A stretch of 64,000 nt of DNA from Saprospiraceae bacterium (lineage in GTDB: Bacteria; Bacteroidota; Bacteroidia; Chitinophagales; Saprospiraceae): positions 62,001 to 126,000 of the forward strand of contig CATQHI010000007.1 of assembly GCA_958295895.1 (NCBI GenBank), given 5' to 3'. Positions 506 through 61,791 of this stretch are shown here, piece after piece. The position numbers and the translations under genes were made by a program. The stretch's first letter is position 1. Each line of letters starts with the position of its first letter. The notes below the pieces were generated by a model. The model saw nothing but the letters and a program-made list of their open reading frames with translations. It searched no databases and had not been told where the DNA came from.

Positions 506-974
506 GATTAGTTGTATTGTATGTTTATCGAGATGTTGATTATGTGAGCATGTTCTCGCTCAGAACATTTAGTGAGGATTGATGTCAGTGCAAAAGTTTT
601 GTGCATCTTTTGATCTATCTTCACAAGTAGCCACAAGAATTCAATTATGTGGCATTTTATGCAAAATTCAAGATCAGCAACGCGGGTAGAAAAGAAAATT
701 TGCAAAGGCCTAGTAGAGTCGCTGCTAGGATTAAAGGCTTTGAGAAGCCATCGCTGTAGAGGACTACAAAACAGTTTATTAAGATCGAAGTAAATTTACA
801 GCTCTCAAAGATTGAAAGCAACAGATCAGAAAGAATCTGCAAAACTTTAACTAAACCCAACCATCCGGGGACGAAGCCACTCTTTTGGTGTACCCCCGGC
901 CATCCACCCCGCACCCGCGCCCCGCCGCCCCCGTGTCCCACTTTCCCCCCATCTTTACCGCGTAAATCTACCCC
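506..974. other. 469-bp intergenic region, AT-rich then GC-rich
   Basis: No credible gene is visible; the open frames here are short and have no family features. Two inverted repeats stand out: ATGTTCT/AGAACAT (550-568) and GCCACA/TGTGGC (630-653, 12-nt loop). Either could be an operator for the leftward protease gene or part of a small hairpin. From about 890 the sequence turns abruptly C-rich, and a copy of the dispersed GC motif lies at 911-927. The rightward promoter of the beta-barrel/trp operon must lie here, but no clear TAnnTTTG box can be picked. Confidence 0.4.
911..927 (-). repeat. dispersed GC motif, divergent copy
   Basis: On the minus strand this reads GGCGGGGCGCGGGTGC, a shortened variant of the window-wide consensus GGCGGGGCCGCAGGTGCAA. 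It lies about 50 bp upstream of the beta-barrel gene. Confidence 0.4.
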
Positions 975-1850
975 ATGCGCCTACTCCAGTACTGCCTGCT
1001 TCTCCTCCTCCCCGGCACCCTGCTCCACGCCCAGGAGTTCAGTGGAGGCTTCCGGGCCGGACTCAACTTCATCTCCTTCGATGCCGATGCGGAAATGGAC
1101 GCCGATGGTATGACGCTCGAAGAATTCAAGCGCACCACCGGCTTCCACGTCGGGGCCACCTTCGCCTTCGAGATTACGGATTTGGTGGGGCTCAAGGCCG
1201 ACCTGATGTACAGCCAGAAGGGCGGAGAGGTACTGTATGAGGGACCGTCGTACCTGTTTCTCTACGCGCCCGACGGACAGGCCGAACGCATCCAGGGTAG
1301 CCTGCAGAGTGAACGTGATGTGCTCAATAGCTACATCGACATCCCCATCGTGGCCTATTACCGGCTCGGACCGCTGGAACTAGAGGGCGGATTCAGCGCT
1401 GGCCTGCTGGTCAATAGCCGGGCATCGGGTTCTGCCTCCTACTCCAATACGGTAGACCCCCAGGGGCGGGGACTGGGCAACATCGTCTACAACTACGACT
1501 ACAATTACTTCGAGGACGTCACCGGACGGGCAGCCGTACTGGAGTTTTCCGATGGTGCCGGGGGGCTGGCCAATATACCGGCGGTGGTCAATGCCTATTA
1601 CAATTCCACCGACAGTCGCCCACTCTACCGCCGCCTGGATTTCGGTCTGGTAGGAGGCCTATCTTTTTTCCTCAACAACGGACTCTACCTCGGCGCCCGC
1701 TACCAACTGGGACTCACCGACACCACACGGGGCGAAAACGACCAGCGGCTGTATAAAGACCCCAGTAGCGGTGACGATACCCTCGAGTACAACACCGACA
1801 ACAAGGACTACAACCGCGTCATCCAGGCCAGCGTAGGCTTTCGTTTCTAG
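975..1850 (+). CDS. outer-membrane beta-barrel protein (PorT-like)
   Basis: The 291-residue product has a signal peptide of about 20 residues (MRLLQYCLLLLLPGTLLHAQ). The mature part opens with GFRAGLNF and ends with the beta-strand ASVGFRF, closing on Phe as expected for an outer-membrane barrel. Alternating hydrophobic strands and Tyr/Gly-rich turns fit the 'outer membrane beta-barrel' (OMP_b-brl_2/PorT-like) families of Bacteroidota. It ends 3 bp before trpD, so it is probably the first gene of that transcript, although no functional link with tryptophan synthesis is apparent. The substrate or role is unknown. Confidence 0.75.
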   Translation: MRLLQYCLLLLLPGTLLHAQEFSGGFRAGLNFISFDADAEMDADGMTLEEFKRTTGFHVGATFAFEITDLVGLKADLMYSQKGGEVLYEGPSYLFLYAPDGQAERIQGSLQSERDVLNSYIDIPIVAYYRLGPLELEGGFSAGLLVNSRASGSASYSNTVDPQGRGLGNIVYNYDYNYFEDVTGRAAVLEFSDGAGGLANIPAVVNAYYNSTDSRPLYRRLDFGLVGGLSFFLNNGLYLGARYQLGLTDTTRGENDQRLYKDPSSGDDTLEYNTDNKDYNRVIQASVGFRF

Positions 1851-6135: not shown

Positions 6136-6990
6136 ATGGCACATAAGAAAGGTGTAGGTAGTACCGACAACGGCCGCGACAGCCACTCCAAACGACTCGG
6201 CGTCAAACTTTTCGGCGGCCAGGCCGCTACGGCCGGCAACATCATTATCCGCCAGCGCGGTACCAAGTACCACCCCGGTGAAAATGTTTACATGGGTAAG
6301 GACTTCACCCTCCACGCCAAAGTAGACGGTAAGGTCACCTTCCGCAAGAGCCGCCTCAACCGCATGTACGTCAGCATCGACCCCAACACTTCGAATGACG
6401 ACGCACGGGCACAGCCGTCGGCGGGGCCGCAGGTGCAACGCAGTAGCCAACAGCAACCAGTTGCAACCGCTACCGCAAGTACTGGCAATGCGTCCACTGA
6501 GGAAAATGCTACTAGCGAGGTAGACGCTACCCTGACGGGCACCACCACCGAAGGTCCGGTGCACATCGACGACGCCCCCGAGATGCCCAGCGTGGCCCCC
6601 GGTATTACCGACGAGGCCGAACTGGCCGTAGCCGATAACCCCGAAGACGAAGCGCTCAATACCGCTGACTACACCGGTAGTGACCTGCCGCAGTACGAAG
6701 TACTCCCCAGCGGTCGCAAGATTGAGCTCGACGACCTCACCGTCATCGAGGGCGTAGGCCCGGCCATCGCCGGCCTGCTCAGCGCCAGCGGTATCGACAG
6801 CTGGCAGGCGCTAGCCGATGCAGACGCCGATTTCATTCAGGGCATCCTCAACGATGCCGGTCCCAACTACTCCGTCCACAACCCCGCTACCTGGAAGCAG
6901 CAGGCCGCCCTGGCCGCCGCCGGTAACTGGGACGAGCTGGAGCAGCTACAACAGCAGCTCGATGGGGGTAAGGAATCTAGCGACGCATAA
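6136..6990 (+). CDS. rpmA: 50S ribosomal protein bL27 fused to a C-terminal helix-hairpin-helix-like domain
   Basis: Residues 1-85 are a complete bL27: [10 protein letters not shown], then [18 protein letters not shown] (12-29), then the beta-rich core ending near YVSIDP. Normal bL27 is about 85 residues; this product has 284. An acidic, Ser/Thr/Ala-rich linker (about 86-196) leads to a folded-looking end (198-275) with [13 protein letters not shown] and [20 protein letters not shown]. This end resembles the helix-hairpin-helix/DUF4332-like domains that bind nucleic acid. The linker includes an exact copy of the dispersed GC motif, encoding SAGPQVQ. A strong terminator follows. That the fused domain acts on rRNA or DNA is inference. 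Confidence 0.9.
6420..6438 (+). repeat. dispersed GC motif, exact consensus copy
   Basis: GGCGGGGCCGCAGGTGCAA, 19 of 19. It lies inside the coding sequence of the bL27 fusion linker and is read in frame as AGPQVQ. Confidence 0.8.
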
Positions 6991-9345: not shown

Positions 9346-10137
9346 GTGCAGTTTACTACGATCCTCCCACGCAGCCGCAGCGCCTGGAAATGTTACGGAT
9401 GCTTCTACCTCTTGACCTGTTCCGTGTATTATTTAGCTACTTGGTACGCCTACGGTGGTCTTCATCCCGGACATCCTCCCCTACTCAACCTGGAAGAATT
9501 TTGCGCTTCCGCCGGGCTCAAGTTCCTGGTCTTTTTCGTGGTCTCCCTCGGCATCTTCTTCGCCTGGGAGCGCTTCGCTCGGGGGATCTCTCGTTTACAG
9601 ATTATTGTTCTTCAGCTTGTAGCCCTAGTTGTGTTCGTGCTGGTCGCCGACCTGCTTCAGGACAACCTACTTGCCATCCGGGGCTGGGTCTATTTTTTCG
9701 GTGGACGTCTCGACATTTTCAACCACCTGCTGGCCGGCGGCTTTTACACCCTCCAACTCAATTTTCTGCTGCTGCTTTACCATCGGGGGGCGGGGCCGCA
9801 GGTGCAAACACCTTCTCTCCCCAAAGCCTACCTACTGACTACCAAAGGGACGGTTGAGGTACCCCTCACCACTGCCGAGATAGATTATCTAAAGGCAGCG
9901 GGTAACTATACTGAGGTGTACCGCGCGGGGGAGCGCTTCCTACTCGGATACGGTATCGGGCCGGCCTCCACTAAATTACCGGACGATTTCTTACGTATTC
10001 ATCGCTCTTACCTAGTTAACCTAGCAGCGGTGTACCAGATCCGGCGTGAGGGACGACGACACCTCGTCGTGCTGCGCGACGGAAGTGAACTCCCCGTCGG
10101 TAGGACTTACCTACCGGTACTGCGATCGCTGCGGTAG
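9346..10137 (+). CDS. membrane-anchored LytTR-domain transcriptional regulator
   Basis: A GTG start gives 263 residues. Four hydrophobic segments occupy about residues 14-160 (for example LKFLVFFVVSLGIFFAWERF and LQIIVLQLVALVVFVLVADL). They are followed by a linker encoded by an exact copy of the dispersed motif (GAGPQVQTPS) and a LytTR DNA-binding domain at about 170-263. The domain shows TAEIDYLKAAGNYTEVY, FLRIHRSYLVNL and LPVGRTYLPVLR, its signature strands and helix. It has no receiver domain, so signal input is probably through the membrane part. It precedes a MORN/PD40 secreted protein gene on the same strand. Confidence 0.85.
   Translation: MQFTTILPRSRSAWKCYGCFYLLTCSVYYLATWYAYGGLHPGHPPLLNLEEFCASAGLKFLVFFVVSLGIFFAWERFARGISRLQIIVLQLVALVVFVLVADLLQDNLLAIRGWVYFFGGRLDIFNHLLAGGFYTLQLNFLLLLYHRGAGPQVQTPSLPKAYLLTTKGTVEVPLTTAEIDYLKAAGNYTEVYRAGERFLLGYGIGPASTKLPDDFLRIHRSYLVNLAAVYQIRREGRRHLVVLRDGSELPVGRTYLPVLRSLR
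9789..9807 (+). repeat. dispersed GC motif, exact consensus copy
   Basis: GGCGGGGCCGCAGGTGCAA, 19 of 19. It lies in the linker between the membrane part and DNA-binding domain of the LytTR regulator, in the same reading frame as the bL27 copy (AGPQVQ). Confidence 0.8.
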
Positions 10138-10235: not shown

Positions 10236-11357
10236 ATGAGTACTTGCACCTGCGTTCCCCGCCCCCTTCTTGTTTTAGTCTTTGTCCTGCTGTGCCTCGT
10301 GTGTCTTGGTCAACGACGTGAGGTGCGGGAGTACTACGCTGATGGTAGACCCAAGCCGTACCGTGGGGAGGTTGCCGGCCTGGCCGAGGGAGAATGGCTG
10401 GAGTGGTATCCAAACGGAACGCTTCGTTACCGGGCGGGTTGGCGAGCGGGAAAGGGCTACGGATTATGGGAATATTTTTATCCCGACGGCCAACTGCGCT
10501 CCGAGACGGTCTACATTGACGATCTACCCACGGGGATCGAACGGGCGTACCACCCAAGTGGAGTGCTCGCTCGGGAAACGGTATACCTAGAAGGCAGGCG
10601 ACACGGCACCGTAAGGACCTATGACCCCACGGGGGTAGAACTTACCCGTCAGTTGTATCTCGGCGATACCATCGTCCTGAATGAACCGCGTTTATTCGCG
10701 CCGGGGGTGATCTCTAAGCCGGAAACGGAGGAGTATGCGGTGGCCTTCAGTCCGGATGGCCAGACCCTTTACCTCACCCGCCGCGAACAGCAGGGCGTAC
10801 CCCAAAAGATCTACCGAAGCGAGTGGGATGGAGACGTCTGGTCAGAGCCGGTCGTCGAAGCGTTCTCAACGGATACGGACGAGGGAGCCAATCTGAGTAA
10901 GGATGGTGAGTGGCTCTACTTTGCGAGTTACCGTCCGCTACCCGGTCGGCCACCCCGACGGGAGCAGGACATGAACCTGTGGCGGGTGGCACGGTCTAGC
11001 AACGGCTGGGGGGAGCCGGAGCCGCTCGGTCCTTCAATCAACCGGGTAATGGCCGAAACGGACGACTGGCCCATCAGTTACGAGGCCGGCCCCTCTTTAG
11101 ATCCACGGGGGAACCTGTATTACTGGAGCGGTCTGGACACTACCCAGGGTGCCGATGTACTGTACGCTCCGCTGCTAGCTGATGGTAGTCATGGCACACC
11201 CTACTCCTTATCGAGCATCAACACGGTTGGGAACGAAGCTGGCGTGAGCTTTTCTGCAGATGGGCGCTACTTCTACTTCTCGCGTTCCGGTCCGGACGGG
11301 ACAGGGGCAGATATCTACTATATGGAAACTGCGTATCTATCCGTTCCACCGAAGTAA
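10236..11357 (+). CDS. secreted MORN-repeat / PD40 beta-propeller protein
   Basis: I place the start at the ATG giving MSTCTCVPRPLLVLVFVLLC, a signal peptide ending at CLGQ. Upstream in-frame codons would bury it. Residues about 30-140 contain YwqK/MORN-type repeats (GEWLEWYPNGTLRYRAGW, GYGLWEYFYPDGQLRSETVY, IERAYHPSGVLARETVY). The second half has WD40-like PD40 blades (VAFSPDGQTLYLTR, ANLSKDGEWLYFAS, VSFSADGRYFYFSR). Such proteins are usually periplasmic or outer-membrane associated; no OmpA domain is present. The function is unknown. The signal-peptide DNA carries a reverse copy of the dispersed GC motif. Confidence 0.75.
   Translation: MSTCTCVPRPLLVLVFVLLCLVCLGQRREVREYYADGRPKPYRGEVAGLAEGEWLEWYPNGTLRYRAGWRAGKGYGLWEYFYPDGQLRSETVYIDDLPTGIERAYHPSGVLARETVYLEGRRHGTVRTYDPTGVELTRQLYLGDTIVLNEPRLFAPGVISKPETEEYAVAFSPDGQTLYLTRREQQGVPQKIYRSEWDGDVWSEPVVEAFSTDTDEGANLSKDGEWLYFASYRPLPGRPPRREQDMNLWRVARSSNGWGEPEPLGPSINRVMAETDDWPISYEAGPSLDPRGNLYYWSGLDTTQGADVLYAPLLADGSHGTPYSLSSINTVGNEAGVSFSADGRYFYFSRSGPDGTGADIYYMETAYLSVPPK
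10244..10263 (-). repeat. dispersed GC motif, copy with one inserted base
   Basis: The minus strand reads GGCGGGGAACGCAGGTGCAA. It lies within the first codons of the MORN/PD40 protein and yields CTCVP in its signal peptide. Confidence 0.7.
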
Positions 11358-11400: not shown

Positions 11401-11419
11401 TTGCACCGGCGGCCCCGCC
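11401..11419 (-). repeat. dispersed GC motif, 18 of 19
   Basis: The minus strand reads GGCGGGGCCGCCGGTGCAA. It lies in the 70-bp gap between the stops of the convergent MORN/PD40 and TerC genes. Confidence 0.75.
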
Positions 11420-19042: not shown

Positions 19043-22000
19043 ATGAGCACCTCCCCCCGCAATAAAGCCCTCGCCGACCACTTCTACCGCCGCATCGCAC
19101 GGATCGGCGAGCAGGAAGGACAGGAACTGGCCAGTCAGCACGAGGCCCTACGTCGCCTGCTTCAGGAACAGTTCGAGCGGGCTACGGAGGAGGACCGGCT
19201 CAGCTTCTCTACCCGCTACGCCCGCATCAGCTACGTCGCCCACAAGCTTAGCCTACCGCGGCAGCTCACCTACTTCGAGCGGCAGTTTCGCAAGACGCGA
19301 GCGGAGGAGCAAAACGAAGATAGCCTTGCCCTGGGCCTGCGGGTAGCCACCGAACTGACCGAGCGGCTCTTCGAGGTCCCCGTTCCCCCGGGCTTACAGG
19401 CCATTGCCGAGCGCCCCTACCCTGACTACCGCGAGCCCGAGGTACGTGGCCACTACTACCAGTTACGGGTCCTGGCCCTGGAGGTCGATACCCGCGAGCA
19501 AGTCCTGCGCGTCAGCCCGGAAGACCGGCCCGAGCAGCGCTTCGTGATTCCCTACGGTGAGGACGAATTAGCGGAGGGCCCCGTCCCCACGGCGGTCGGG
19601 ATCCTAGAAAAGGTCAGCGGCCCCTACGTCGTCTGCAACCTCATCAACGCCCAGTTGCGCGACGGCGGCCGCCTCTATCCCAGCCAGATCGTCATCGAGC
19701 CCGACTTCCTGGTCAATGTCACCGACGTAGCCAGCTGCTTCGGTAGCGGACCCCACTACCAGGTCTGGTCTACCCTGCCCAAGCGCCTGCTGCCCTTCGA
19801 AAAGCGGCCGCCCCTGGTACGCGGTAGCATCGTCAACTCCTTCCTCGACTTCCTCGTGCAGGAGCCCGATATCTCCTTCGCCAAGATCAAGTCGCGCATC
19901 TTCGCCCTCCAGCCCCTGGAGCTGAGCCTGTTCAACGACGCCGAGAGCCGCCAGCTCATGGGCGACTTGAAGCACCACTTTCTCACGGTCCAAAAGTTCG
20001 TCCGCCAGCACCTCGACGAGCTCAGTATCGAGCGGGAAACGGTCACGCTGGAACCCTCTTTCCTAAGCCCCAGCTACGGGCTCCAGGGTCGCCTCGACCT
20101 GCTCGACTCCCAGGAAGACAGCGAGGGCGGCACCACCAGCATCGTCGAGCTCAAGACGAGCAAGATATTCCGCCCCAACGTCCACGGCATCCGCCCCGAC
20201 AACTTCATCCAGACGGTCCTCTACGACCTCATGATCAACCGGGCGCTGGGCAAGGAGGCGCAGGTGCGCAGCTACATTCTGTACAGTGTCGACTACGACC
20301 GCCCGGTGCGCTATGCCCCCCCGCAGTTCGTCCACCAGATGGAGGCGCTCACGGCGCGCAACAAACTCGTTGCGGTGGAGATGCTACTGGCCCAGTTGGG
20401 CGGGGACGCAGGTGCGGACTCCTCGCAGCGAGACCTAAGACAGCAGACCGACGCCCTATTCGCCCGCATCCAGCCCGAACGGCTACCGCCCCTCGGTTCC
20501 TTCACCGAAACGGACCACCGCACTACCCTATCCACCTACCAGCAACTCAGCGACCTGGAGCGCCGCTACCTGGGCGCCTTCATGGGCTTCGTAGCCCGGG
20601 AGCAGCGGCTGGCCAAGATCGGCGAGCAGAAGACGGACCACGTCAACGGCCTGGCCAGCCTCTGGCTCGACGAGCGCCGCGACAAGATCGAACGCTTCGA
20701 GCTGCTCGACGGACTCGCCTACGACCACTACGATCCGGAAGGCAACCGGCTCACCCTGCGGCGGCAGGATGATGACGAGATGCTCATCAAGTTCCGCCAG
20801 GGCGATATCGTCGCCCTCTACGGTACCGAGGAGCGGGAGAGCCAAACGGGGGATGCGGTCCGCTCCCAGATCCTGAAGTCGACCATCATCGCCGTTGACG
20901 AGCAGACCGTGCACCTGCGGCCCCGCAACCCCCAGCTGAACGACCGCGTGTTCCGCCGCAAACCCTACTGGGCCATCGAAAAGGACGTGCTGGACAGTAG
21001 CTTCAAGAACCACTACCTGGGGCTCTATCTCTGGGCCGCCTCCCCCCCGGACTTCCGCCGGCGCTGGCTCGGACTGCAACCCCCCGGACAGGCCGAACCC
21101 TACGCCGGCAACGTAGCCTCTGACCTGACCGACGAACAGCAGCGTATCCTACGCCGGGTCATCACCGCACCCGACTACTTCCTGCTCTGGGGACCGCCGG
21201 GCACGGGTAAGACCAGCATGATGCTACACCACCTGGTGCGCCACCTACTGCTGCATACAGATGAGCAAATTCTTCTAGTGGCCTACACCAACCGGGCCGT
21301 CGACGAGATCTGTGAGAGCATCGAGCGCATCCAGATCGACGGCGAGCCCTTCAGAGATTACCTGCGCATCGGTAGCCGACTCGGGACCGGGGAGGCCCAC
21401 CAGGGGCAACTGCTACAGGTGAAAAGCGAGGGCATTCAGCGGCGCAAAGAACTGCGCGCCCTGATCGACCGTACGCGGGTGGTCGTCGGCACCGTCTCCA
21501 GCGTGGGGGGGAAGAACGAGTTGTTCAAGCTCAAGACCTTCGACCGAGTGATCGTCGACGAGGCCAGTCAGATTCTGGAGCCGCTGCTGGCCAGTCTGCT
21601 CACGCGCGTGCCCCGCGCCCTGCTGATCGGCGACCACCGCCAACTGCCCGCTGTAGTGCAGCAGGCCGACGCCCTGACGCAGGTCAGTGATACGGTACTT
21701 CAGGAAGCCGGGCTAAAGAACCTAGGTACCAGTCTTTTCGAACGCCTCTACCTGACCGCCCGCCGCAACGAGTGGACCTGGGCCTACAACCAACTGAGCC
21801 GGCAGGGGCGGATGCACGAGACGATCATGGCCTTTCCGGCCCTGCACTTCTACGACGATACCCTACGTATTCTGCCGGAGTCCATCAGCCACCATCTGAA
21901 GCAGCGGGCACCGCTACGCATGAACGCCCCCGTCGGTGAACTGCAGACCGATTTGTGTCAGGACCGCCTCGTGTTCCTGTCCACCCCCGTAGACCACGAG

Positions 22001-30013: not shown

Positions 30014-30839
30014 ACGTAAACCCGGTCAGTCGCTCACTCTCCTCCCAGAGCCGCGCGGCCTCCGATTCAGAGTAGGAGCTGGAGTGCGATTGCTTGGGTC
30101 GGCAGTCGTCCCAGTAGAGACCACTCGGCGGCGTATCAGCTACCGTAGCCAGAAATATGCTCGTAGCCGCGCCCTGCGCTGCCGTCTTGTGCCCGCTCAT
30201 TCGCCGCCGCACCCGCCAGGCCAGCCGGTGTAGCCAGGTGTTGCCCTTGAGCCCGATGTCGGTCTGCACCAGTCCGGGTTGGATGGCACAGATCACCGTA
30301 TCGTTCGTACAGCGCCGTTCGTATTCGTAGCAGAACAGTACGTTGGCCAGCTTGCTCTGGGCGTACGACCGCAGCCCGTGGTACCTCCCCTGTAGACTCA
30401 GGTCGTCAAAGTGCATCCCCCTCATCTGCTCATGGCTATCGCTCGCCACGCACAGCACCCGCGCCCCCGCCTGGAGGTGTGACTGCAGTAAGCCCGTGAG
30501 CAGGAAGTAGGCCAGGTGGTTGACCGCGAAGGTCCGCTCGATGCCCTCTGCGGTCAGTTCGCGGGTGGAATTCCAGACGCCGGCGTTGTTGATCAGCACG
30601 TCTAGCCGGGGGTGGTCGCGGCGTACGGTCGCGGCAAGCGCACGTACTGCGGACTGCTCACTCAGCTCGGCGGCCAGGGGCACCAACGTACCCGTGCCAA
30701 TCTCCGCCACGGCGGCCTCGGCGCGCTCCAGCGTACGACCGTGCAGCAGCACCCGCCACCCCTGCCGGGCCAGGGCGCGTGCGGTCTCCAGCCCGATGCC
30801 GGAGGTAGCGCCGGTGATGAGTACGGTTTTTTGCGGCAT
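30003..30839 (-). CDS. SDR family oxidoreductase (retinol-dehydrogenase-like)
   Basis: The 278-residue product contains ITGATSGIG (8-16), INNAGVWNSTR (about 86), FAVNHLAYFLLTGLL, and RSYAQSKLANVLF with the YxxxK pair. The AVNHLAYF and SYAQSKLAN strings are typical of the retinol dehydrogenase/WWOX-like branch that reduces carbonyls with NADPH. It is transcribed after xseB with a 3-bp gap and overlaps the opposite SDR at its 3' end. The codon for QAGARVLCVAS includes a partial dispersed-motif copy. Confidence 0.85.
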   Translation of the reverse strand: MPQKTVLITGATSGIGLETARALARQGWRVLLHGRTLERAEAAVAEIGTGTLVPLAAELSEQSAVRALAATVRRDHPRLDVLINNAGVWNSTRELTAEGIERTFAVNHLAYFLLTGLLQSHLQAGARVLCVASDSHEQMRGMHFDDLSLQGRYHGLRSYAQSKLANVLFCYEYERRCTNDTVICAIQPGLVQTDIGLKGNTWLHRLAWRVRRRMSGHKTAAQGAATSIFLATVADTPPSGLYWDDCRPKQSHSSSYSESEAARLWEESERLTGFTFTC

Positions 30840-40198: not shown

Positions 40199-40217
40199 GG
40201 CGGGGCCGCAGGTGCAA
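40199..40217 (+). repeat. dispersed GC motif, exact consensus copy
   Basis: GGCGGGGCCGCAGGTGCAA, 19 of 19, in noncoding DNA 85 bp upstream of the ECF sigma start codon. Confidence 0.8.
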
Positions 40218-40426: not shown

Positions 40427-42037
40427 ATGTCAGCAGATGTACTTACCGCGCCGGCGCCGCCAGCGGCGGCGGCGGGCCTCAATGCCTATACCGGCACCTT
40501 CGGCCGCAGGGAGGCTGGCCACTTGCTCCGCCGTACCATTTTCGGCCCCACCCTAAAGGAAATCGACGACGCCGTCGCCCGGGGGCTTTCCGCGACCATC
40601 GACCTCCTCGTTGCACCGGCGGCCCCGCCCTCTCCCCCGCTGAACCACTTTTTTACCGACGACCCGAACGTACCCGTGGGTCAGACCTGGATTAACAGCC
40701 CCTTTTTGGACTCCGCCGACGTCGGGGAATACCGCTGGCCGAGTCTACGCGGCTGGTATATGAACAACCTGATCGAGGCGCCCACCCGGCTACGGGAGAA
40801 GATGGCCATGTTCTGGATGAACCACTTCGGGATGGCCGACGTGGGCGACCACCGGGTGCAGTACGACTACGTGCAACTGTTTCGCCGCTACGCTACGGGC
40901 AACTTTCGCAAGCTCATCGAGGAGATCACCGTGCACCCCTCTATGCTTACCTTCCTCAACGGGCGGTATAGCTACAAGGACGCGCCGGATGAGAACTACG
41001 CCCGCGAGCTGCTGGAGCTCTTCACCGTCCAGAAGGGGCAGCCCGGGGACGTGAACTATACCGAGGACGATATTCGCCAGATCGCCCGCATCCTCACCGG
41101 CTGGCGGGTACGCAACATGTGGAGCCAGGAGGAGGGGCCCGTAGAAAGCTACTTCGATGCCGGCTGGCACGACGAGCAGCCCAAGCAGCTCAGTAGCTAC
41201 TTCAATAATGCGGTGATCGCGAACGGCGGGGCCGGGGAGTACAGGACTCTGATCGGCATCATCTTCGACCACCCGGAGACCGCACGCGCCATTTGCCGCG
41301 ACCTCCACCTCTACTTCGTCGGCGAGCTGAGCTACAAGGTGGAGACCTGGGTGATCCCCCGACTGGCCCGTCTGCTGGTGGAGAGCGACTTCGAACTGGA
41401 GCCAGTGCTGCGTAACCTACTGGGATCCAACCACTTTGCGAAAGCGCAGCGGCAGGGTACCATCGTGAAGAACCCCTATGAGTTCATGCTTTCGATGGCC
41501 CGTCCGCTCGGGGGCTACGGCCACCTGGGGCTCGATCTCAAAACCGGGTACAACCTCGGCAATGCCTACCACTGGTGGGCAAGCACGATGGATATGGACT
41601 TCCTCTACCTGCCCACCGTATCGGGCTGGAAGGCCTACTACCAGGCACCGGGCTACTACCGGAGCTGGATCACGTCTACCACCCTGCAGCGCCGCCGCCG
41701 ACTCGTTCAGGACATTTGCTGGGGCGGCGTATGGACCGAGGGCCAGGGCCGGCCCTTCGATTGGTTCGGCTTCATCGCCCGCCTGACTACGCCGGACGAC
41801 GTCAATGCCCTGATCGATGATGTTGCCGCCCTCTTTCTATCCACACCGCCCCACCCCGATCAGCTTACGGGACTGAAGGACGTACTGCTGCCCGGCCTCC
41901 CCGACCTGGAGTGGACCATCCAGTACCGGCAGTACCTCGCTAATCCCGAGAACCCCGAGTTCGCCAATCCGCTGCTGAGCAAGATCAAGGACTTCTTCCG
42001 CGCCCTCTTCAGCCTCGCCGAATTTCACCTCCAATAA
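40427..42037 (+). CDS. DUF1800 family protein
   Basis: The 536-residue product matches DUF1800: FGRREAGHLLRRTIFGPTLK at the start, then RLREKMAMFWMNHFGMADVG, APDENYARELLELFTVQKGQ, YTEDDIRQIARILTGWR and NLLGSNHFAKAQRQGTIVKN. No classical signal peptide is evident; the N-terminus is Ala/Pro-rich. DUF1800 and DUF1501 proteins are regularly encoded together and are thought to be exported, but their function is unknown. An 18-of-19 dispersed-motif copy encodes the low-complexity VAPAAPPSPP near residue 62. Confidence 0.88.
   Translation: MSADVLTAPAPPAAAAGLNAYTGTFGRREAGHLLRRTIFGPTLKEIDDAVARGLSATIDLLVAPAAPPSPPLNHFFTDDPNVPVGQTWINSPFLDSADVGEYRWPSLRGWYMNNLIEAPTRLREKMAMFWMNHFGMADVGDHRVQYDYVQLFRRYATGNFRKLIEEITVHPSMLTFLNGRYSYKDAPDENYARELLELFTVQKGQPGDVNYTEDDIRQIARILTGWRVRNMWSQEEGPVESYFDAGWHDEQPKQLSSYFNNAVIANGGAGEYRTLIGIIFDHPETARAICRDLHLYFVGELSYKVETWVIPRLARLLVESDFELEPVLRNLLGSNHFAKAQRQGTIVKNPYEFMLSMARPLGGYGHLGLDLKTGYNLGNAYHWWASTMDMDFLYLPTVSGWKAYYQAPGYYRSWITSTTLQRRRRLVQDICWGGVWTEGQGRPFDWFGFIARLTTPDDVNALIDDVAALFLSTPPHPDQLTGLKDVLLPGLPDLEWTIQYRQYLANPENPEFANPLLSKIKDFFRALFSLAEFHLQ
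40611..40629 (-). repeat. dispersed GC motif, 18 of 19
   Basis: The minus strand reads GGCGGGGCCGCCGGTGCAA, identical to the copy at 11401. It lies in the Ala/Pro linker of the DUF1800 protein. Confidence 0.75.
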
Positions 42038-46153: not shown

Positions 46154-47461
46154 TCAGAGTACCTCGGCTACGGTAAAGATGCTACCGCCCACGAAGACGA
46201 TATCCTTCTGTGAGGCCGCCTTTAGGGCCGCCCGGTACCCCTTCTGTACCGAACCGAACGTCTCCCCAATAAGGCGGTACTCCGCTGCCGCAGCCACCAG
46301 GTCCTCCGCCGCCAGCCCGCGCGGAATATCCGCCTTCACGAAGTAGTAGCTGGCATTCGTGGGGAAGAGGGGCAGTACGTGGTGTAGATCCTTGTCGTTC
46401 ACCACCCCGAGTACAATGTGCTGGTGCCCCTTCCGGTAGGCATTCTGCTCGTTCAGCAGGGCAATCACCGGTCCGAGCCCCTCCCCATTATGGGCACTAT
46501 CCGCGATGACCAGGGGGGTAGACCGCAACACCTGCCAGCGCCCAATGTAGTAGGTAAGCCCGTGCAGGTTTCCCCACGCCCGCCGAACGGCTTCGGGATC
46601 GAGGTCGAGGTAGTCGCGGTGATCCAGTTCGATCAGCGCGGCGATGGCCGTTCGGTGGTTCTCCACTACGTAGGGGCCATCGACCGATACGGCAATTGGG
46701 AACTCCAGCGGTGGGATGGCTTCCCCGGCAAACAAATGCTGCCGGCTGTAATCATCCTCCCGGGTGAAGTTGGCCCGGATACTGTACTCCTGGTCTGCGA
46801 AGTGGATAGGGGCACTGACCTCCCTGGCTTTCTTGCGGAATACCGGTTGCGTCTCGGCCTGGGTCAGACCAATCACTACCGGCCGCCCCGGCTTGATGAT
46901 GCCCGCCTTTTCCCCGGCAATTTCGGGTAGGGTATCGCCGAGAAACTGCAGGTGATCGTAGCCAATGTTGGTGATTACACTTAGCACCGGGTCTACCACA
47001 TTGGTGCTATCCAGCCGCCCGCCCAGTCCTACCTCCAGCACCACCCACTGCACCTGCGCCCCCGCAAAGTAGTCCAGGGCCATAGCCACCGTGATCTCGA
47101 AAAAGCTCGGCTCGATCCGCTCGATGGCCGGCTCGATCCGCTCTACGAAGTTCACCACCGCATCCGGTGGGATAAACTCCCCGTTGATCTTGATCCGCTC
47201 CCGAAAATCTTTGTAGTGTGGACTAGTGTATAATCCTACCCGGTTGCCGTGCGTCTGTAGGGCTGCGGCGATCAGGTGGCTCACCGTACCCTTGCCGTTC
47301 GTCCCGCCCACGTGCACGAAGCGCAGGCCCCGCTCCGGGTGCCCCAACTCCTCCAGCAGCAGGCGGATATTCGTGAGGTCCTTTTTCATGGCCACGTCGC
47401 CCTGCCGCTGGTACATGGGCAGGCGGGTGAGGAGGTAGTCGAGGGTCTCCGGGTACGTCAT
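46154..47461 (-). CDS. folC: bifunctional dihydrofolate synthase / folylpolyglutamate synthase
   Basis: The 435-residue Mur-ligase-fold product has the P-loop VGGTNGKGTVSHLI (51-64), YTSPHYKDFRERI, the magnesium-binding LEVGLGGRLDSTNVV, and ADSAHNGEGLGPV in the C-terminal domain. It glutamylates dihydropteroate and tetrahydrofolate. A weak dispersed-motif copy (47049-47065) encodes FAGAQVQW. The start codon is 11 bp from the divergent TPR-like gene; the stop region faces fabH across 29 bp. Confidence 0.92.
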   Translation of the reverse strand: MTYPETLDYLLTRLPMYQRQGDVAMKKDLTNIRLLLEELGHPERGLRFVHVGGTNGKGTVSHLIAAALQTHGNRVGLYTSPHYKDFRERIKINGEFIPPDAVVNFVERIEPAIERIEPSFFEITVAMALDYFAGAQVQWVVLEVGLGGRLDSTNVVDPVLSVITNIGYDHLQFLGDTLPEIAGEKAGIIKPGRPVVIGLTQAETQPVFRKKAREVSAPIHFADQEYSIRANFTREDDYSRQHLFAGEAIPPLEFPIAVSVDGPYVVENHRTAIAALIELDHRDYLDLDPEAVRRAWGNLHGLTYYIGRWQVLRSTPLVIADSAHNGEGLGPVIALLNEQNAYRKGHQHIVLGVVNDKDLHHVLPLFPTNASYYFVKADIPRGLAAEDLVAAAAEYRLIGETFGSVQKGYRAALKAASQKDIVFVGGSIFTVAEVL

Positions 47462-49587: not shown

Positions 49588-50580
49588 TTAGGGATCGACG
49601 ATACCTATGGTCATAACGATTTTGCCGACGTTGGCGTTGCTGGCCATGTAGCGGTGGGCATCGCCGACCTGCTCCCAGTCGTAAATGGTATCGACTACCG
49701 GTGCCAGGGTGCCATCGGCGAAGTGGGGCCAAATCTTGTCGCGGAAGTCGGCCGTGAGCTGCTGGCGGTAGTGGTCGGAGCGGCTGCGCATGGTGGTACC
49801 CGTAAGCTGAATACGCTTGCGCAAAAAGGGCGCCATGCTGAAGTCAGCCACGCGGGCACCCCCCAGGGCGGCCAGGCTAACGATGCGGGCGTCGGTGGCG
49901 CAGCAGGCCAGATTCTTGTTGAGGTAGGGCCCGCCCACGAAGTCAAGTACGATGTCTACGCCCTTGCCCTCGGTGAAGTCCAGCACCGCCTCGGCAAAGT
50001 CTCGCTGGTGGTAGTCGATACAGATGGCCGCGCCCAGCTCGAAGAGCCGCTCGTGCTTGTGCCCGCTGGCCGTGACGACAGGCAGGGCCCCGGCTAGCTT
50101 AGCCAGTTGGATAGCTGCCGTACCCACCCCGCTCGCCCCGGCGTGGATCAGCACCGTATCACCCGACTGCACCCGTCCGATCCAGTGGAGCGCCTGGAAG
50201 GCCGTCAGGAAGGCCTCCGGGATCGCTGCCGCCTTAGTGAAGGATAGCCGTTCGGGTAGCTTGAGGAGCATGCGGTAGTCCACCGCAATCTGTTGGGCGT
50301 AGCCGCCGCCGTTGACCAGGGCGCAGACATTATCTCCTACCTCAAAGCCCTTTGCTTCGGGGCCTACCTCCAGCACCGTCCCCGCCACTTCGAGGCCCAG
50401 AATGGGGCTAGCTCCCTCCGGTACCGGGTACCTGCCCTCTCGTTGTAGCAGGTCGGCGCGGTTCAGGGCGGTAGCGGCAATGTGTAACAGCACGTCCGGG
50501 GCCGCAGGTGCGGGCTCAGCTACGTCGGCCAGATGCAACTGGTGGGCATCCCCCGGCGTGTCGAATACGATAGCTTTCAT
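49588..50580 (-). CDS. NAD(P)H-quinone oxidoreductase, zinc-free MDR family (PIG3-like)
   Basis: The 330-residue product is a medium-chain dehydrogenase with a GroES-like N-domain (LLQREGRYPVPEGASPILGL, EVAGTVLEVG) and a Rossmann domain (VLIHAGASGVGTAAIQLAKL). It lacks the structural-zinc cysteines. LQREGRYPVPEGASPILGLE is typical of the PIG3/TP53I3 quinone reductase group. A dispersed-motif copy encodes EPAPAAPD near residue 22. It follows proC with a 3-bp gap, in one transcript ended by the terminator at 49543. Confidence 0.88.
   Translation of the reverse strand: MKAIVFDTPGDAHQLHLADVAEPAPAAPDVLLHIAATALNRADLLQREGRYPVPEGASPILGLEVAGTVLEVGPEAKGFEVGDNVCALVNGGGYAQQIAVDYRMLLKLPERLSFTKAAAIPEAFLTAFQALHWIGRVQSGDTVLIHAGASGVGTAAIQLAKLAGALPVVTASGHKHERLFELGAAICIDYHQRDFAEAVLDFTEGKGVDIVLDFVGGPYLNKNLACCATDARIVSLAALGGARVADFSMAPFLRKRIQLTGTTMRSRSDHYRQQLTADFRDKIWPHFADGTLAPVVDTIYDWEQVGDAHRYMASNANVGKIVMTIGIVDP
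50495..50513 (+). repeat. dispersed GC motif, partial copy
   Basis: The last 14 bases (GGGGCCGCAGGTGC and beyond) match the consensus; the first few differ. It encodes a Pro/Ala linker on the opposite strand, in the quinone oxidoreductase N-domain. Confidence 0.5.
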
Positions 50581-54961: not shown

Positions 54962-54962
54962 G

Positions 54963-56381
54963 GTGCGGGGGGCAGTACAATGCGGTCTCCGACCGCGCCA
55001 GAAAAATGCAGCCTCCGGCTGCGCTGGTAGCTCGCGTATTGTACTTTTCGTACTTCTCTGCACCTGCGTCCCCGCCCTCCTCACCGCCCAGCTCCGGCTA
55101 GCCATCAGCGCCGACGGCAGCCACATCGTAAACGTCAGCCAGGACGACGCCCCCTTCTTCTACCTCGGCGATACCGCTTGGGAACTGCTACACCGTGCGG
55201 ATGAAGCCGAGACACGGATGTACCTCAAAGACCGACAGGCTAAGGGCTTTAATGTCATCCAAACCGTAGTCCTGGCCGAGCTGGATGGCTTGACCACACC
55301 GAACGCCAATGGGGACTTGGCGCTCATTAACCTCGACCCCACCGACTGGAACGAACCCTACTTCGCCCACGTAGACCGGGTAGCGGAGCTAGCCGATAGC
55401 CTCGGCATTTTCCTGGGTCTGCTACCTACCTGGGGTGATAAATTCAATAAGAAGTGGGGAGTAGGACCGGAAGTATTCACGCCGGAAAATGCGGAAGTAT
55501 ACGGTCGTATGCTAGGCGAGCGCTACGGCGACCACAACGTGATCTGGATACTGGGCGGCGACCGCAACCCAGAAAATGAGGAAGATTTTGCCATCGTCCG
55601 GGCCATGGCTGCTGGGCTGCGGGAGGCCGTCGGCACCACACAACTAATTACCTACCACCCCCAGGGCGGCTACCGCTCCTCCCAGTTTTTTGCCGACGAC
55701 GAATGGATCGACTTCCACATGTTTCAGTCCGGCCACGGCAGCCTAAACGACAAGCAGAACTACGACTTTCCCCGTGATGTAAACCGGGAGGCCCCCGGCA
55801 AACCGGTCGTAAATGGCGAGCCCGCTTACGAGGACCACCCCATCAACTGGCGGCCGGTCAACGGCTGGTTCGATGACTTCGACGCCCGGCAGGCGGCCTG
55901 GTGGAGCGTGCTTTCGGGCACGGATGGCCACACCTTCGGCAACCACAACATCTGGCAAATGTGGCAACCGGGGCGGGAGCCCATTAGCAGTGCCCGTACC
56001 CCCTGGAAGGAGGCTGTGCACTACCCCGGGGCGGCGCAGATGGGGCACCTGCGGCGGTTGATGGAGTCGCTGCCGTACTACGATCTGGAGGTAGATTGGG
56101 ATTTTCTGACCGCCGGGCCGAATAGCAGTGGGCGGGAGACGGTGGTGGCACGGACGCCTGTCCGCGACTTAGTGATGGCCTATACACCTTACGGAGATGA
56201 GTTACGGATGCCTAGCGACCGCATGCATCCAAACAGTGTCTTCACCTGGTATAATCCTCGGTCTGGTGAGCGCGTCCCGTTTAAACCCCAGTCAGTTGGT
56301 AGCGAGCTTGTGTTTGATCCGCCCTTAGATCCTCAGCGTGGAAATGATTGGGTACTCATCGGTCAGCGGTTTTACGACTGA
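54963..56381 (+). CDS. GH140-type apiosidase-like glycoside hydrolase (DUF4038)
   Basis: The mature protein begins near QLRLAISADGSHIVNVSQDD. GDTAWELLHRADEAETRMYL and the TIM-barrel segments KGFNVIQTVVLAEL and WILGGDRNPENEED follow, with VNGEPAYEDHPINW containing a likely catalytic Glu, and a C-terminal sandwich (VWYNPRSGERVPFK-like). These match DUF4038/GH140. The start is uncertain: a GTG at 54963 gives a 472-residue form whose first 25 residues are encoded by a cruciform repeat, and the hydrophobic signal core IVLFVLLCTCVPALLTAQ begins inside the repeat's right arm. No ATG is available in between. Confidence 0.75.
   Translation: MRGAVQCGLRPRQKNAASGCAGSSRIVLFVLLCTCVPALLTAQLRLAISADGSHIVNVSQDDAPFFYLGDTAWELLHRADEAETRMYLKDRQAKGFNVIQTVVLAELDGLTTPNANGDLALINLDPTDWNEPYFAHVDRVAELADSLGIFLGLLPTWGDKFNKKWGVGPEVFTPENAEVYGRMLGERYGDHNVIWILGGDRNPENEEDFAIVRAMAAGLREAVGTTQLITYHPQGGYRSSQFFADDEWIDFHMFQSGHGSLNDKQNYDFPRDVNREAPGKPVVNGEPAYEDHPINWRPVNGWFDDFDARQAAWWSVLSGTDGHTFGNHNIWQMWQPGREPISSARTPWKEAVHYPGAAQMGHLRRLMESLPYYDLEVDWDFLTAGPNSSGRETVVARTPVRDLVMAYTPYGDELRMPSDRMHPNSVFTWYNPRSGERVPFKPQSVGSELVFDPPLDPQRGNDWVLIGQRFYD
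54974..55045. repeat. cruciform element with outer stem and two inner hairpins
   Basis: AGTACAAT (54974-54981) pairs perfectly with ATTGTACT (55038-55045). Inside are GCGGTC-TCC-GACCGC (54982-54996) and GCAGCC-TCC-GGCTGC (55008-55022). Its right arm codes for IVL in the signal peptide of the GH140 protein. Confidence 0.8.
55059..55076 (-). repeat. dispersed GC motif, signal-peptide copy
   Basis: The minus strand reads GGCGGGGACGCAGGTGCA, 17 of 18. On the coding strand it yields CTCVPA in the GH140 signal peptide. Confidence 0.65.
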
Positions 56382-58112: not shown

Positions 58113-58384
58113 GGATTTACGATTTACGATGTTTGATGTACGATGTGGCTACCGCTGTTGCAGGCGCTACGTGCGTGGTAGGCGGGCGGGGCCGCGGGTG
58201 CAAGGAACGTTGCGCGCGCCACCGGGGCTAACATAGGCAAAATCACCTGTACCTACTTACCATACCGTTCTCCAGTAGCACTTACCTTCCCCCCTCGCAC
58301 TTCACCTCCCACGAGCGAAGTGAGCTGCCCCATAACCGCCGAAGGCAGCAGCGCAGCTAATCGTACGTCGTAAATCCCAAATCC
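58113..58384. repeat. 272-bp intergenic element bounded by GATTTACGA inverted arms
   Basis: The left arm, GGATTTACGATTTACGATG (58113-58131) with a following TGTACGATG, and the right arm, TCGTACGTCGTAAATCCC (58361-58378), are imperfect inverted copies. Between them lie an 18-of-19 dispersed-motif copy and a GAGCGAAGTGAGCTGCC hairpin. The arms abut the start codons of the isomerase gene and the DinB gene. No open frame or transposase is inside. It resembles a non-autonomous mobile element (MITE-like), or a shared promoter region rebuilt by one. Confidence 0.6.
58185..58203 (+). repeat. dispersed GC motif, 18 of 19
   Basis: GGCGGGGCCGCGGGTGCAA, noncoding, nested inside the inverted-arm element. 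Confidence 0.7.
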
Positions 58385-58958: not shown

Positions 58959-60461
58959 TTGGTTCGTTTTCTTACCTGCACCCTGTTGCTACTCTTAGTG
59001 GGCCATCTCCACGCCGTTGACCTCACCGGCCGCCTGCGTATGCTGTATCCCGGCGAAAGCCCAGCGGCCGTCCAGCAGCGGCAGTATCTGGGCAAGCAAC
59101 TGGAAAATCTGTTCGTCCGCCTCAACCACTACGACCGGGTCAACCGGCGCTCCCGCCGTAAGCAAATCGAGCGCATCGAGCAACGCTGCCGCCGCGAACT
59201 GCTGCTGCACTATGACCCCAGCGCCGAGCTGACCGACGCCTTCCGCGACGGCCGCTACAACGATGCCACCGCCGCCCTGCTTTACGGCCTGGCCCTGGAA
59301 AAGTATAACATCCCGTACGAGGGCCGCGTGGATCACTGGGAGAGCTACCTCATCGTAGACCCCCAGGGCAAAAGACCCGTCCGCCTGTACGCCCCGGCAG
59401 TACGCCCCCGCACCACGGCGGCCGAGCGAAGCTACCGGCGGGAATACCTGGCCCTGGTACGCAGTACGCTCGACGAAGACCTCACCACCCTGAGCCCCAC
59501 GGCCGCCGACCGGCTCTACCAACAGTACTACTACGCGCCGGATCAGCGCCTAAACTTTCGCGAGCTCTCGGCCTACGCCCAGTTTCGCCGCGCTCAGCGA
59601 GCCTTCGCCGGTAGGGACTACCCGGCTACGCTGGCTTACCTCACCGAGGCCCGAGTCCTAGACGAGCGCCCCGCCTTCCGCCTCTACCAACGGGCCGTCG
59701 CGCTACAGCAGGCCAGTCTCACCGTACCCAACGAAGAAGCCGTGGTGAAAGAACTCTTCGTACAGTGGCGGGAAGACCCCGGCAGTCAGTATCTCCCGGC
59801 CCGCCTCCTGCGGTACTTCGACGCACAGCAACAACTGCTACTGACACGGGGAGAGGCGGAAGGTGCCCTCGACCTGCTCAACCGCTACTGCACCCGCGCA
59901 CCCGCCCACACCCCCGACTGGTGCGCGGAGCTGGGCATGCTACAGAGTCTGCGGCTACTGGCGTACTACCAGGCGCGCGGCGAAAACGTGCAGGCCCTGC
60001 ACCTGGCCGAGTCACTCCTGAATGCCCACCCCGAGGATACCCGACTGCAGGGCTACGTGGCCGAGCTCACACTGGTCAACCTGCGCCAGACCTATCCCGA
60101 TGCGCAGGAACTGGTGGACCAGGCCAAACTAGCCGCCCGCCGCTATCCTTTTTTGCTGAAGCACGACCGCTACGCCGATATTGTACTGCGGCAGACCGCC
60201 CTACGGGTGCGGGACCTGTTCGCCGCCGAAAACGAGACCGCCGGACTGCTAGAACTAGCCCACTTTCGTGAGCAGCTCACAGAGATTCCGAATGGCTACG
60301 ACCGGACCCTATGGACGCTGACGGCCTTCGTGGCAGCTAGCAATTACTACTTCGCGGAGGAAGACTATGCGCCGGCGCGCGCCTACATCGAGGAGGCGCT
60401 GCGGTACGACCCCGCTAACGACTTTCTACTCCACCAGCAGGACCTGCTGGCGCGCTACTGA
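58959..60461 (+). CDS. secreted TPR-like protein of unknown function
   Basis: I place the start at the TTG that gives (M)VRFLTCTLLLLLVGHLHAVD, a signal peptide, making a 500-residue protein. Earlier codons overlap the DinB gene. A Lys/Arg-rich helical region follows (NRRSRRKQIERIEQRCRREL). Further on are TPR-like helices: FRRAQRAFAGRDYPATLAYL and SNYYFAEEDYAPARAYIEEA, the latter leading into LRYDPANDFLLHQQ. No catalytic motif was found. The 3' end overlaps the convergent TlpA-like gene by 47 bp. Confidence 0.65.
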   Translation: MVRFLTCTLLLLLVGHLHAVDLTGRLRMLYPGESPAAVQQRQYLGKQLENLFVRLNHYDRVNRRSRRKQIERIEQRCRRELLLHYDPSAELTDAFRDGRYNDATAALLYGLALEKYNIPYEGRVDHWESYLIVDPQGKRPVRLYAPAVRPRTTAAERSYRREYLALVRSTLDEDLTTLSPTAADRLYQQYYYAPDQRLNFRELSAYAQFRRAQRAFAGRDYPATLAYLTEARVLDERPAFRLYQRAVALQQASLTVPNEEAVVKELFVQWREDPGSQYLPARLLRYFDAQQQLLLTRGEAEGALDLLNRYCTRAPAHTPDWCAELGMLQSLRLLAYYQARGENVQALHLAESLLNAHPEDTRLQGYVAELTLVNLRQTYPDAQELVDQAKLAARRYPFLLKHDRYADIVLRQTALRVRDLFAAENETAGLLELAHFREQLTEIPNGYDRTLWTLTAFVAASNYYFAEEDYAPARAYIEEALRYDPANDFLLHQQDLLARY

Positions 60462-61791
60462 GTAGCTCCTGCACCGAACGATCGAAGCTCTCGACGAACT
60501 CGCCGTACTTCGAGGTGGCCGGTCCGTTGAAGCCGGTGTGAATGCGGCGTACCTGGTTGTCGCGGTCCACGAAGAGCATGGTGGGGTAGCTAATCACTTG
60601 GGAGAGCATGGGCAGGGCACGCCCCGCTTCGTTTTTGTCGTTGCTGCCGGCCAGTAGGATGGGCCAATCCACCCCCTGGTTTTCCCGGTAGCGGCGGATG
60701 GCGGCACGGCTGCGGTCGTCATCGGCGCCGTAGCGTTCGAAGGCTAGGGCGATTACTTGTAGGTCCTCGGTGTCGTGGGTGGCCAGGTACTCCTGTAGGA
60801 AGTTGGTCTCGTCGCGGCAGTTGGGGCACCAGGTGCCGAAAAGCTGGATGAGTTTTGGTCCCTTGATGTCGCTCAGCCGCACCGTATCACCCTCAGCGGT
60901 AGGAAAGGCAAAAGCCAGGGGGACGTCGTCACGTAGCCGGGTCAGCGCATCGGGATCCGTAAGCTCGGCAGTATCATCGCGCGTGGCCGTCCAGTCAGTG
61001 ATGTAGTGGCGGCCGCTGCGAAAGGTGCCCGTGAGGCTGCCATCGTCCTTGATCAGGGCCTCGAAGAGGAAGGCATGGCTACCGTCGAACACGCTGAGGT
61101 ACAGCTTATGGCCCTGCACGGTACCCTCCAGGTAGCGGTAGTCGCCGGTCTCGGTGCGGAAGGTGCCGGTGAGGTGGTTGCCTTCCTGTTTGAACTCAGC
61201 TACGCCCGGATAGGGATCTTCGGTGGCGTCGCCGGCGAAGGTCACCGCCCAGGTGCCGGTCACGTCGGCGGCCGGCTCCTTCTGTAGGGGGGTGAAGCGG
61301 AAGTCCTTACCGAAGTAGGCCTTGAAGGGGATCACGTAGTTGTCGCGGTAGTGTACCACCCACACCCCCTCGATCACATTCTCCTCGTGGTAGGCGCTGA
61401 TGTGGGTATCGTAGACCGGGAAGTCGATGCGCAGCGTATCGCGGCCCGCCTGCTGGTCGCGCCCGGCGGTGATGTTTTCAGCCGGCACCAGAATGCTTTC
61501 TTCCCCGTTGTGGATCACGAGGTGAAAGGCCGTATCGCTATCGTACACCACGTCGAAGGTGAAGGGTAGCTGCCCCTGCGTCACCTCATCGAACTCCAGA
61601 TTGACCTTTTCGGGGATGGGGGCGCCCTTGGGGTTGGGTACGATGGGGTTATACTCCAGTTCGAGCACGCCGCGGTAGGGCCCGGGGGGCAGAAACTGGT
61701 AGCGCTGCTGCACGAACACGCAGGCGGTGCCCAGCAGTACGAGCAGGAGGGCGCTACACGCAGGTGCAACGAAGGGGCGAAGGGCGGGCAT
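60415..61791 (-). CDS. TlpA-family thioredoxin-like exported protein
   Basis: The 458-residue product has an N-terminal signal anchor (CSALLLVLLGTACVFVQQR). A beta-rich middle domain follows (YRGVLELEYNPIVPNPKG and WAVTFAGDATEDPYPGVAEF), common in Bacteroidota TlpA-like proteins. The thioredoxin domain has IQLFGTWCPNCRDETNFLQE, with the redox Cys pair near residue 330, and VISYPTMLFVDRDNQVRRIH with the cis-Pro. It would act on disulfides in the periplasm. A partial dispersed-motif copy overlaps the signal (VAPAC). Confidence 0.85.
   Translation of the reverse strand: MPALRPFVAPACSALLLVLLGTACVFVQQRYQFLPPGPYRGVLELEYNPIVPNPKGAPIPEKVNLEFDEVTQGQLPFTFDVVYDSDTAFHLVIHNGEESILVPAENITAGRDQQAGRDTLRIDFPVYDTHISAYHEENVIEGVWVVHYRDNYVIPFKAYFGKDFRFTPLQKEPAADVTGTWAVTFAGDATEDPYPGVAEFKQEGNHLTGTFRTETGDYRYLEGTVQGHKLYLSVFDGSHAFLFEALIKDDGSLTGTFRSGRHYITDWTATRDDTAELTDPDALTRLRDDVPLAFAFPTAEGDTVRLSDIKGPKLIQLFGTWCPNCRDETNFLQEYLATHDTEDLQVIALAFERYGADDDRSRAAIRRYRENQGVDWPILLAGSNDKNEAGRALPMLSQVISYPTMLFVDRDNQVRRIHTGFNGPATSKYGEFVESFDRSVQELLSSAPAGPAGGVESR
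61757..61769 (+). repeat. dispersed GC motif, partial copy
   Basis: CACGCAGGTGCAA retains the 3' half of the consensus. It lies in the signal-anchor codons of the TlpA-like gene. Confidence 0.35.

Follow-up and report, generated by a model that had tools for sequence, protein, structure and literature searches.

Uptake sequences, as treated in the papers cited here, belong to two proteobacterial families that import DNA via type IV pili, and are termed DNA uptake sequences (DUS) in the Neisseriaceae and uptake signal sequences (USS) in the Pasteurellaceae. They are described as occurring in hundreds to thousands of copies, often as inverted repeats and in dialects (PMC12616744, PMC3630211), with even spacing, no orientation bias, an extragenic excess and point mutations of pre-existing sequence as their origin (PMC1939737), and as being atypically distributed in mobile elements (PMC7371117). 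Those of the Pasteurellaceae are reported to favour the ends of genes, and within the reading frame one orientation is the commoner (PMC2346458); minor pilins are given for both families, namely ComP in Neisseria and the predicted receptor in the Pasteurellaceae (PMC12616744). Among the Bacteroidota, Riemerella anatipestifer is described as transformable by ComEC, DprA, ComF, RecA and four proteins which, in the account cited, are unlike known machinery and include a DUF5689 protein adjoining a CarboxypepD-reg protein (PMC8459023). Riemerella columbina is reported to prefer its own DNA over that of R. anatipestifer or E. coli in competition; the portion of that paper cited here establishes no motif, its top k-mers being A/T-rich words of up to 10 bases (PMC7965970). 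Here we describe a long GC-rich motif in 64,000 nucleotides of a marine Saprospiraceae bacterium (assembly GCA_958295895.1, contig CATQHI010000007.1, positions 62,001 to 126,000; hereafter the window), which recurs throughout its genome and in most of its sequenced relatives and has the distribution of an uptake sequence, whose function it may share.

The window contains 13 copies of the 19-mer GGCGGGGCCGCAGGTGCAA at three or fewer mismatches, compared with a mean of 0.04 in 100 dinucleotide shuffles, none of which held more than 1, in agreement with the preliminary description, which had judged the copies to exceed chance. Nor is the motif restricted to the window, as in the 4.77-Mb genome that bears it (G000; the window lies in contig C7) the same threshold returns 464 forward and 397 reverse matches (861 in all) versus 9 + 3 = 12 for the reversed pattern, and at least 100 copies are exact. 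The core GGCGnGGnCGCnGGTGCA, at one mismatch or fewer, occurs at 942 sites in G000 and at 938, 1,698, 522 and 324 sites in the congeners G002, G005, G017 and G013, respectively, versus 7 and 2 sites for the reversed core pattern in G000 and G005. These whole-genome counts are pattern searches only, and the other statistics refer to sampled sequence (464 kb of G000, 500 kb of G014, 480 kb of G005, 140 kb of G002 and 100 kb of G006). The comparison with a Markov expectation, proposed in the preliminary description, gives the same picture, with 62 (G000) and 123 (G005) core sites in the sampled sequence versus 0 or 1 in order-5 simulations (six per genome).

Across the 20 congeners (G001-G020), which the preliminary description had suggested searching, the 19-mer is enriched in 18, with 68 to 1,505 matches at three or fewer mismatches, a 22-fold spread that is inflated by differences of spelling; the exceptions are G001 (15 matches) and G011 (7). 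Most sequenced relatives carry this kind of word hundreds of times, spelled by species. In 144 genomes of other genera of the same order the core was never found at more than 7 sites, and the motif is specific to the genus Neolewinella/Lewinella (Saprospiraceae). No report of it was found among the papers listed in searches of the openly accessible literature. A midpoint-rooted tree from a single locus of approximately 1.35 kb, covering 20 of the 21 genomes (G018 is missing), separates a clade A (G000, G009, G020, G016, G012, G001, G007, G004 and G017) from a clade B formed by the ten remaining genomes in the tree except G011, which sits on a long branch of uncertain placement.

In clade B the motif is asymmetric and approximately 45 bp long, spanning about positions -6 to +39 around the core GGCGnGGnCGCnGGTGCA (225 unpaired copies, four genomes), and consists of a T-rich lead, the GC-rich core and a weaker GnAAGGTTT-like and purine-rich tail, with 15 fixed core positions and long weak flanks. 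The extended motif is much alike in 136 intergenic, 44 sense and 45 antisense single copies from these genomes, a likeness that points to double-stranded DNA as the recognised object. Perfect cores outnumber single mismatches in G005 (90 versus 33) and G014 (73 versus 45), and are the fewer in G000 (27 versus 35). The spelling varies with the species: GGCGCGG is the main form in G002, G005, G006 and G014, GGCGCTG is common among the matches listed for G013, CGCAGGAGC is found at several sites in G004 and some in G017, and G001 has GGCGGAGCGCAGGT, a form with few copies behind it (4 exact in 60 kb). By eye, this last form (L208) lacks one base of the common one between the two core halves, and so does the weak place at 909 of the window.

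The other exception, G011, has a private word, TTCAAAGTAGCAA, with 266 + 267 = 533 sites at one mismatch or fewer, compared with no more than 10 in any other of the 21 genomes; over 60 kb of G011, roughly two thirds of its 17 places are intergenic and some form inverted pairs. This word gives no convincing alignment to the common motif and shares no clear core with it, and may be an independent invention. As a further candidate dialect, TAGGCGGTAGG in G019 was rejected, being mostly confined to local tandem arrays. Separately, AAAGACTAAAAGACTAA-type words are strongly over-represented in samples of G007 (L104-L106), where they probably reflect a local repeat array.

With respect to genes, which were called by a simple script with approximate start positions, 62 of 62 sites could be placed in G000, 121 of 123 in G005, 118 of 118 in G014, 19 of 21 in G006 and 24 of 29 in G002; the reversed sequence of 480-500 kb of G005 and G014 contained no core sites, versus the 121 and 118 placed there. 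Intergenic copies are about three times as frequent as expected (74 versus 22.8 and 66 versus 19.9 in G005 and G014, where they make up 56-61% of copies, and 26 versus 9.7 in G000), and interior coding copies reach 0.4 times the expectation in G005 and G014 and 0.7 times in G000. Coding copies use five of the six reading frames, encoding GGAAGA, xAGPQVQ, APAAP, LHLRPR or CTCxRAQ, and none was seen in the sixth. Within 60 bases of a predicted start, 44 copies are antisense and 6 sense (164 of 185 sites placed), an excess that is due in good part to signal peptides: CTCxRAQ encodes signal-peptide ends, and 21 of 29 early coding copies lie in the single antisense frame that yields such ends. In the spacers between co-directional genes of G005 and G014, 35 copies are antisense and 39 sense, with no preference for either orientation. 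The ComEC gene of G000 has one motif copy inside it and two more alongside.

On the scale of the chromosome, strand excess is absent from all five contigs of 100-400 kb, the position of which relative to the replication origin was not established. The lack of strand bias claimed in the preliminary description accordingly stands for the genome strands and fails locally, at gene starts, where the orientation preference relative to genes stems to a good extent from signal-peptide codons. Spacing and close pairs were analysed for sites with up to two core mismatches, spacing after neighbouring sites had been merged. The copies of G005 are spaced more evenly than those in all of 500 simulations, and those of G014 more evenly than in 498-499 of 500. 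Pairs less than 400 bases apart are inward-facing in 38 of 49 cases across five genomes; in clade B, an inward partner lies within 400 bases of 19-37% of sites, and just 1 of 282 sites has a same-direction partner downstream. Furthermore, a 72.8-kb stretch of contig C3 of G000 (about 230-303 kb; L072-L076), containing many short single genes, is free of the motif. Ten of its proteins were scanned; several are metabolic enzymes, and HsdM and a DDE transposase-like protein are also among them, so that the stretch is probably acquired DNA, a genomic island.

Few sites can be aligned well enough to trace the origin of a copy; two clear ones show a gain unaccompanied by a change of length, as expected of point mutation, and one is contrary. 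At 31167 of the window, the word lies in the signal peptide of G000 and G009, and four orthologues that lack it align free of gaps. At L150:1027 it is present in G014 (two core mismatches) and G003 (one), with a spacer that matches in approximate length those of four motif-less species (by eye, approximately 21-30 bases in G014, G003, G008, G005, G002 and G018); in G006, a fifth motif-less species, the spacer is longer. Among the flanks of 62, 123 and 118 copies there were no two alike at 70% of 70 bases, those of G005 being slightly more similar than column-shuffled controls. Target duplications were inspected by eye with five flanking bases displayed.

Taken together, the motif is best read as a self-recognition tag resembling a DNA uptake sequence, an interpretation with about an even chance of being correct. 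Competent cells would bind and import free DNA bearing the word of their own species better than other DNA, and recombination of the imported DNA would restore the word and spread it wherever genes tolerate it, in intergenic sequence, linkers and signal peptides. This reading is supported by the over-representation, the common motif of approximately 45 bp in all contexts, the restriction to one genus, the species spellings and the lack of strand excess, and further by the even spacing in two genomes, the inward pairs of clade B, the gain of the word at unchanged length at two sites, the one motif-free island and the conservation of ComEC and DprA, which were found in 21 and 20 of the 21 genomes, respectively (the genome without DprA is 55% complete). 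Like the DUS, the motif is present in hundreds to thousands of copies, with an intergenic excess, inverted pairs, species dialects around a common core and absence from one probable island; it differs in phylum, has an unrelated and much longer sequence, and occurs in genomes in which no pilus motor was found. It shares with the USS an asymmetric core with weaker flanking segments, even spacing in two genomes, lack of chromosome polarity, an apparent origin by point mutation at two sites, many intragenic copies and a gene-end bias, and differs from them in a GC-rich core of about 18 rather than 9 bases, a weak, purine-rich tail and, again, the pilus motor. The self-DNA preference of R. columbina, likewise in the Bacteroidota, is the converse case, since uptake is shown there without a motif and here, in contrast to both the DUS and R. 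columbina, the evidence is a motif known from sequence alone. Because the likeness is one of distribution alone, and the search gave no pilus such as the known systems use, the motif is not classed as a DUS or a USS.

Several observations weigh against an uptake function. No type IV pilus motor was found in the 21 genomes, minor pilins and the secretin lying outside the search; a T2SSE profile matches in 20 of them, 11 marginally above the cut-off, at no more than about 25 bits and over part of the profile only, and the sole matching protein that was scanned proved to be an ATPase of the ClpB/ClpC type. Both ComEC and DprA occur widely in bacteria, with matches in 10 and 11, respectively, of 14 control genomes, and the ComF-like match, seen in 20 of the 21 genomes, lies far below the curated cut-off and, occurring in all 14 controls as well, is of little information. 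For Lewinella, no paper was found on natural transformation or an uptake sequence. The motif is also long for a DUS (up to 13 bases) or the core of a USS (9 bases). Evenness of spacing is borderline in G006 and not significant in G002, and spacing in G000 is uneven (coefficient of variation 1.43), a spread that is raised by the 72.8-kb motif-free stretch. Inward partners reach approximately 5% in G000, with no enrichment, and the co-directional spacers of this genome hold 7 antisense copies versus 1 sense, an excess directly upstream of starts. At 20399 of the window, 24-27 extra bases relative to four orthologues look like an insertion of length. Finally, drive and selection for a binding site would leave indistinguishable sequences. 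Separately, a helix-hairpin-helix protein of L214 was rejected as a ComEA-like candidate, being a glycogen-binding-type protein.

Among the roles offered in the preliminary description, an uptake word is the best fit and a protein-binding site a less probable second, a mobile oligonucleotide being disfavoured and a methylase site unlikely. The foremost alternative, which we consider somewhat unlikely, is that the motif is bound inside the cell by an abundant protein with a role in organising or regulating the chromosome, and that species-specific site preferences evolve along with this protein. The even spacing in G005 and G014, the long asymmetric footprint of approximately 45 bp, the oriented pairs, the gene-start preference in G000 and the recognisable word kept across species at 32087 would all suit such a protein. 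The approximately 940-1,700 near-consensus sites per genome in G000, G002 and G005 would, however, be unusual for a regulator; furthermore, the co-directional intergenic copies of G005 and G014 show no orientation preference, and counts differ 22-fold among the 18 enriched congeners, differences of spelling again inflating the figure.

An origin as a mobile oligonucleotide, or as the termini of small elements derived from transposons, is improbable. The inward pairs, 50-400 bases apart, resemble terminal inverted repeats and prompted this reading, to which the length difference at 20399 and the slight flank similarity in G005 also lend support; it is weakened by the unpaired majority (in clade B, 63-81% of copies lack an inward partner, even a degenerate one), by the dissimilar flanks and by the gain of the word without clear change of length at two sites. 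A pair in L150, moreover, can still be made out in G008 with a decayed left copy, despite changes in the intervening sequence. REP/MITE-type repeats are dispersed and occur in inverted pairs; the copies here, in contrast, are mostly single, are intragenic in five frames and carry no copy-paste signature. Unlike the palindromic extragenic hairpins of REP/RAYT systems, they lie in part within genes and fold no better than shuffles, and they lack the paired terminal repeats with similar copies of MITEs and insertion sequences (IS).

More doubtful still is an mRNA leader or other element acting at the RNA level, a reading prompted by a first, smaller sample, namely the 44 antisense versus 6 sense copies near predicted starts, and supported also by the 7 antisense copies versus 1 sense in the co-directional spacers of G000. 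The larger clade B sample, with no orientation preference in such spacers, weakens it, as do the early coding copies, most of which share one signal-peptide frame, and the extended motif, identical in kind in sense and antisense within genes. Six single-copy sequences folded no more stably than their shuffles, and the sole Rfam match in the window is a tRNA distant from the motif copies.

A word of the Chi, KOPS or methylase type would likewise be over-represented and species-specific, but this reading is very improbable: the strand polarity of Chi and KOPS is absent from the five contigs described above, and the motif would be far too long, a methylase site being unlikely because of the 15 fixed positions and long weak flanks. 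HIP1 of cyanobacteria, an abundant and dispersed DNA word of unclear function, is alike in abundance and dispersal and differs in being a short palindrome rather than a long asymmetric motif. That the word is a by-product of codon usage or repeated protein motifs, as the copies at conserved protein positions (20909, 36081 and 47048) might suggest, is scarcely credible, being contradicted by the Markov simulations and disfavoured by the five reading frames and the intergenic majority in G005 and G014.

If the motif is indeed an uptake tag, it is possible, on a tentative view, that Neolewinella holds a third, independent uptake-sequence system, pilus-free, with the first defined word in the Bacteroidota and a receptor and word that change together. 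Such co-change is suggested by G011, the one genome of the 21 where DUF5689 was found and the one with the other word. At L216:733-5601 of G011, a CarboxypepD-reg/Plug protein of outer-membrane type precedes a lipoprotein-like protein that bears three DUF5689 domains, a pair resembling an essential transformation pair of Riemerella; the match with the other word is a single coincidence, to be taken as a lead only. A third case, in a distant phylum and without pilus motors, would mean that the recognition of self-DNA has evolved time and again and would imply a surface receptor of unknown kind; it could account for the preference of R. columbina for its own DNA and would offer a handle for transforming marine Bacteroidota. 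The spellings and copy numbers over some 20 species, with one apparent replacement of the word, would moreover make testable the long debate on whether such words originate by drive or by selection. Even if it should prove a protein-binding site, the motif would be unusual among dispersed motifs in its abundance and length.

The copies of the window are collected in Table 1. The three exact and three one-mismatch copies were found where the preliminary description had placed them. Of the 17 copies it listed, 12 have three or fewer mismatches; those at 10244 and 50495 have four, that at 22694 has five, and the places at 911 (minus strand) and 61757 have at least seven, the former looking by eye like the core minus one base and the latter retaining only the 11-mer CGCAGGTGCAA. 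Four listed starts shift slightly (31168, 47049, 55059 and 22694 become 31167, 47048, 55058 and 22691), and the list was incomplete, the copy at 20909 having been overlooked. The copies at 36081, 47048 and 20909 are probably coincidental because congeners conserve these positions as protein sequence, which agrees with the earlier judgement on the first two.

Table 1. Copies of the motif and weaker places in the window, with mismatches counted against the 19-mer.
Position	Strand	Match	Context
6420..6438	+	exact	linker between ribosomal L27 domain and HHH_5 domain, single open reading frame (ORF) 6136-6990
9789..9807	+	exact	within predicted LytTR-domain ORF 9538-10137
10244..10262	-	weak, 4 mismatches	intergenic
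11401..11419	-	1 mismatch, core perfect	intergenic
20399..20417	+	3 mismatches	variable loop of helicase/nuclease-like gene; 24-27 bases longer than four orthologues
20909..20927	-	motif-like, 2 mismatches	conserved coding position in the helicase/nuclease-like gene that also holds 20399; probably coincidental
22691..22709	+	weak, 5 mismatches	coding sequence
30453..30471	-	weak, 4 mismatches	coding sequence
31167..31185	-	core perfect	signal-peptide codons of ORF 31132-31800; four motif-less orthologues align gap-free
32087..32105	+	motif copy	immediately upstream of start codon; recognisable in several congeners, each with its own spelling
36081..36099	+	motif-like	conserved coding position; probably coincidental
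40199..40217	+	exact	intergenic, between sigma-70-family gene and DUF1800 gene
40611..40629	-	1 mismatch, core perfect	close to start of DUF1800 gene
47048..47066	-	motif-like	conserved coding position; probably coincidental
50495..50513	+	weak, 4 mismatches	coding sequence
55058..55076	-	core perfect	close to start of predicted ORF 54921-56381; signal-peptide-like CTCVPA
58185..58203	+	1 mismatch, core perfect	intergenic; G009, G017 and G004 have similar words where they align
59888..59906	-	weak, 4 mismatches	coding sequence

Some further observations were made. A short segment of the window that follows a CorA gene (44901-44940) matches many places in G009, and no second copy of it was seen within the loci searched locally. 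Two other dispersed sequences lie at L150: the stretch 19440-19535 is a second dispersed repeat, of which other clade B samples contain pieces of 27-87 bases at 76-93% identity, and the element at 13985-14070 has 13 copies among the matches listed for G011, at approximately 80-86% identity. The ORF at 6136-6990 of the window fuses ribosomal protein L27 to a C-terminal helix-hairpin-helix domain, and in G004, G012 and G017 the open frame stops shortly after L27; helix-hairpin-helix segments like that of the fusion recur in other proteins of the genus.

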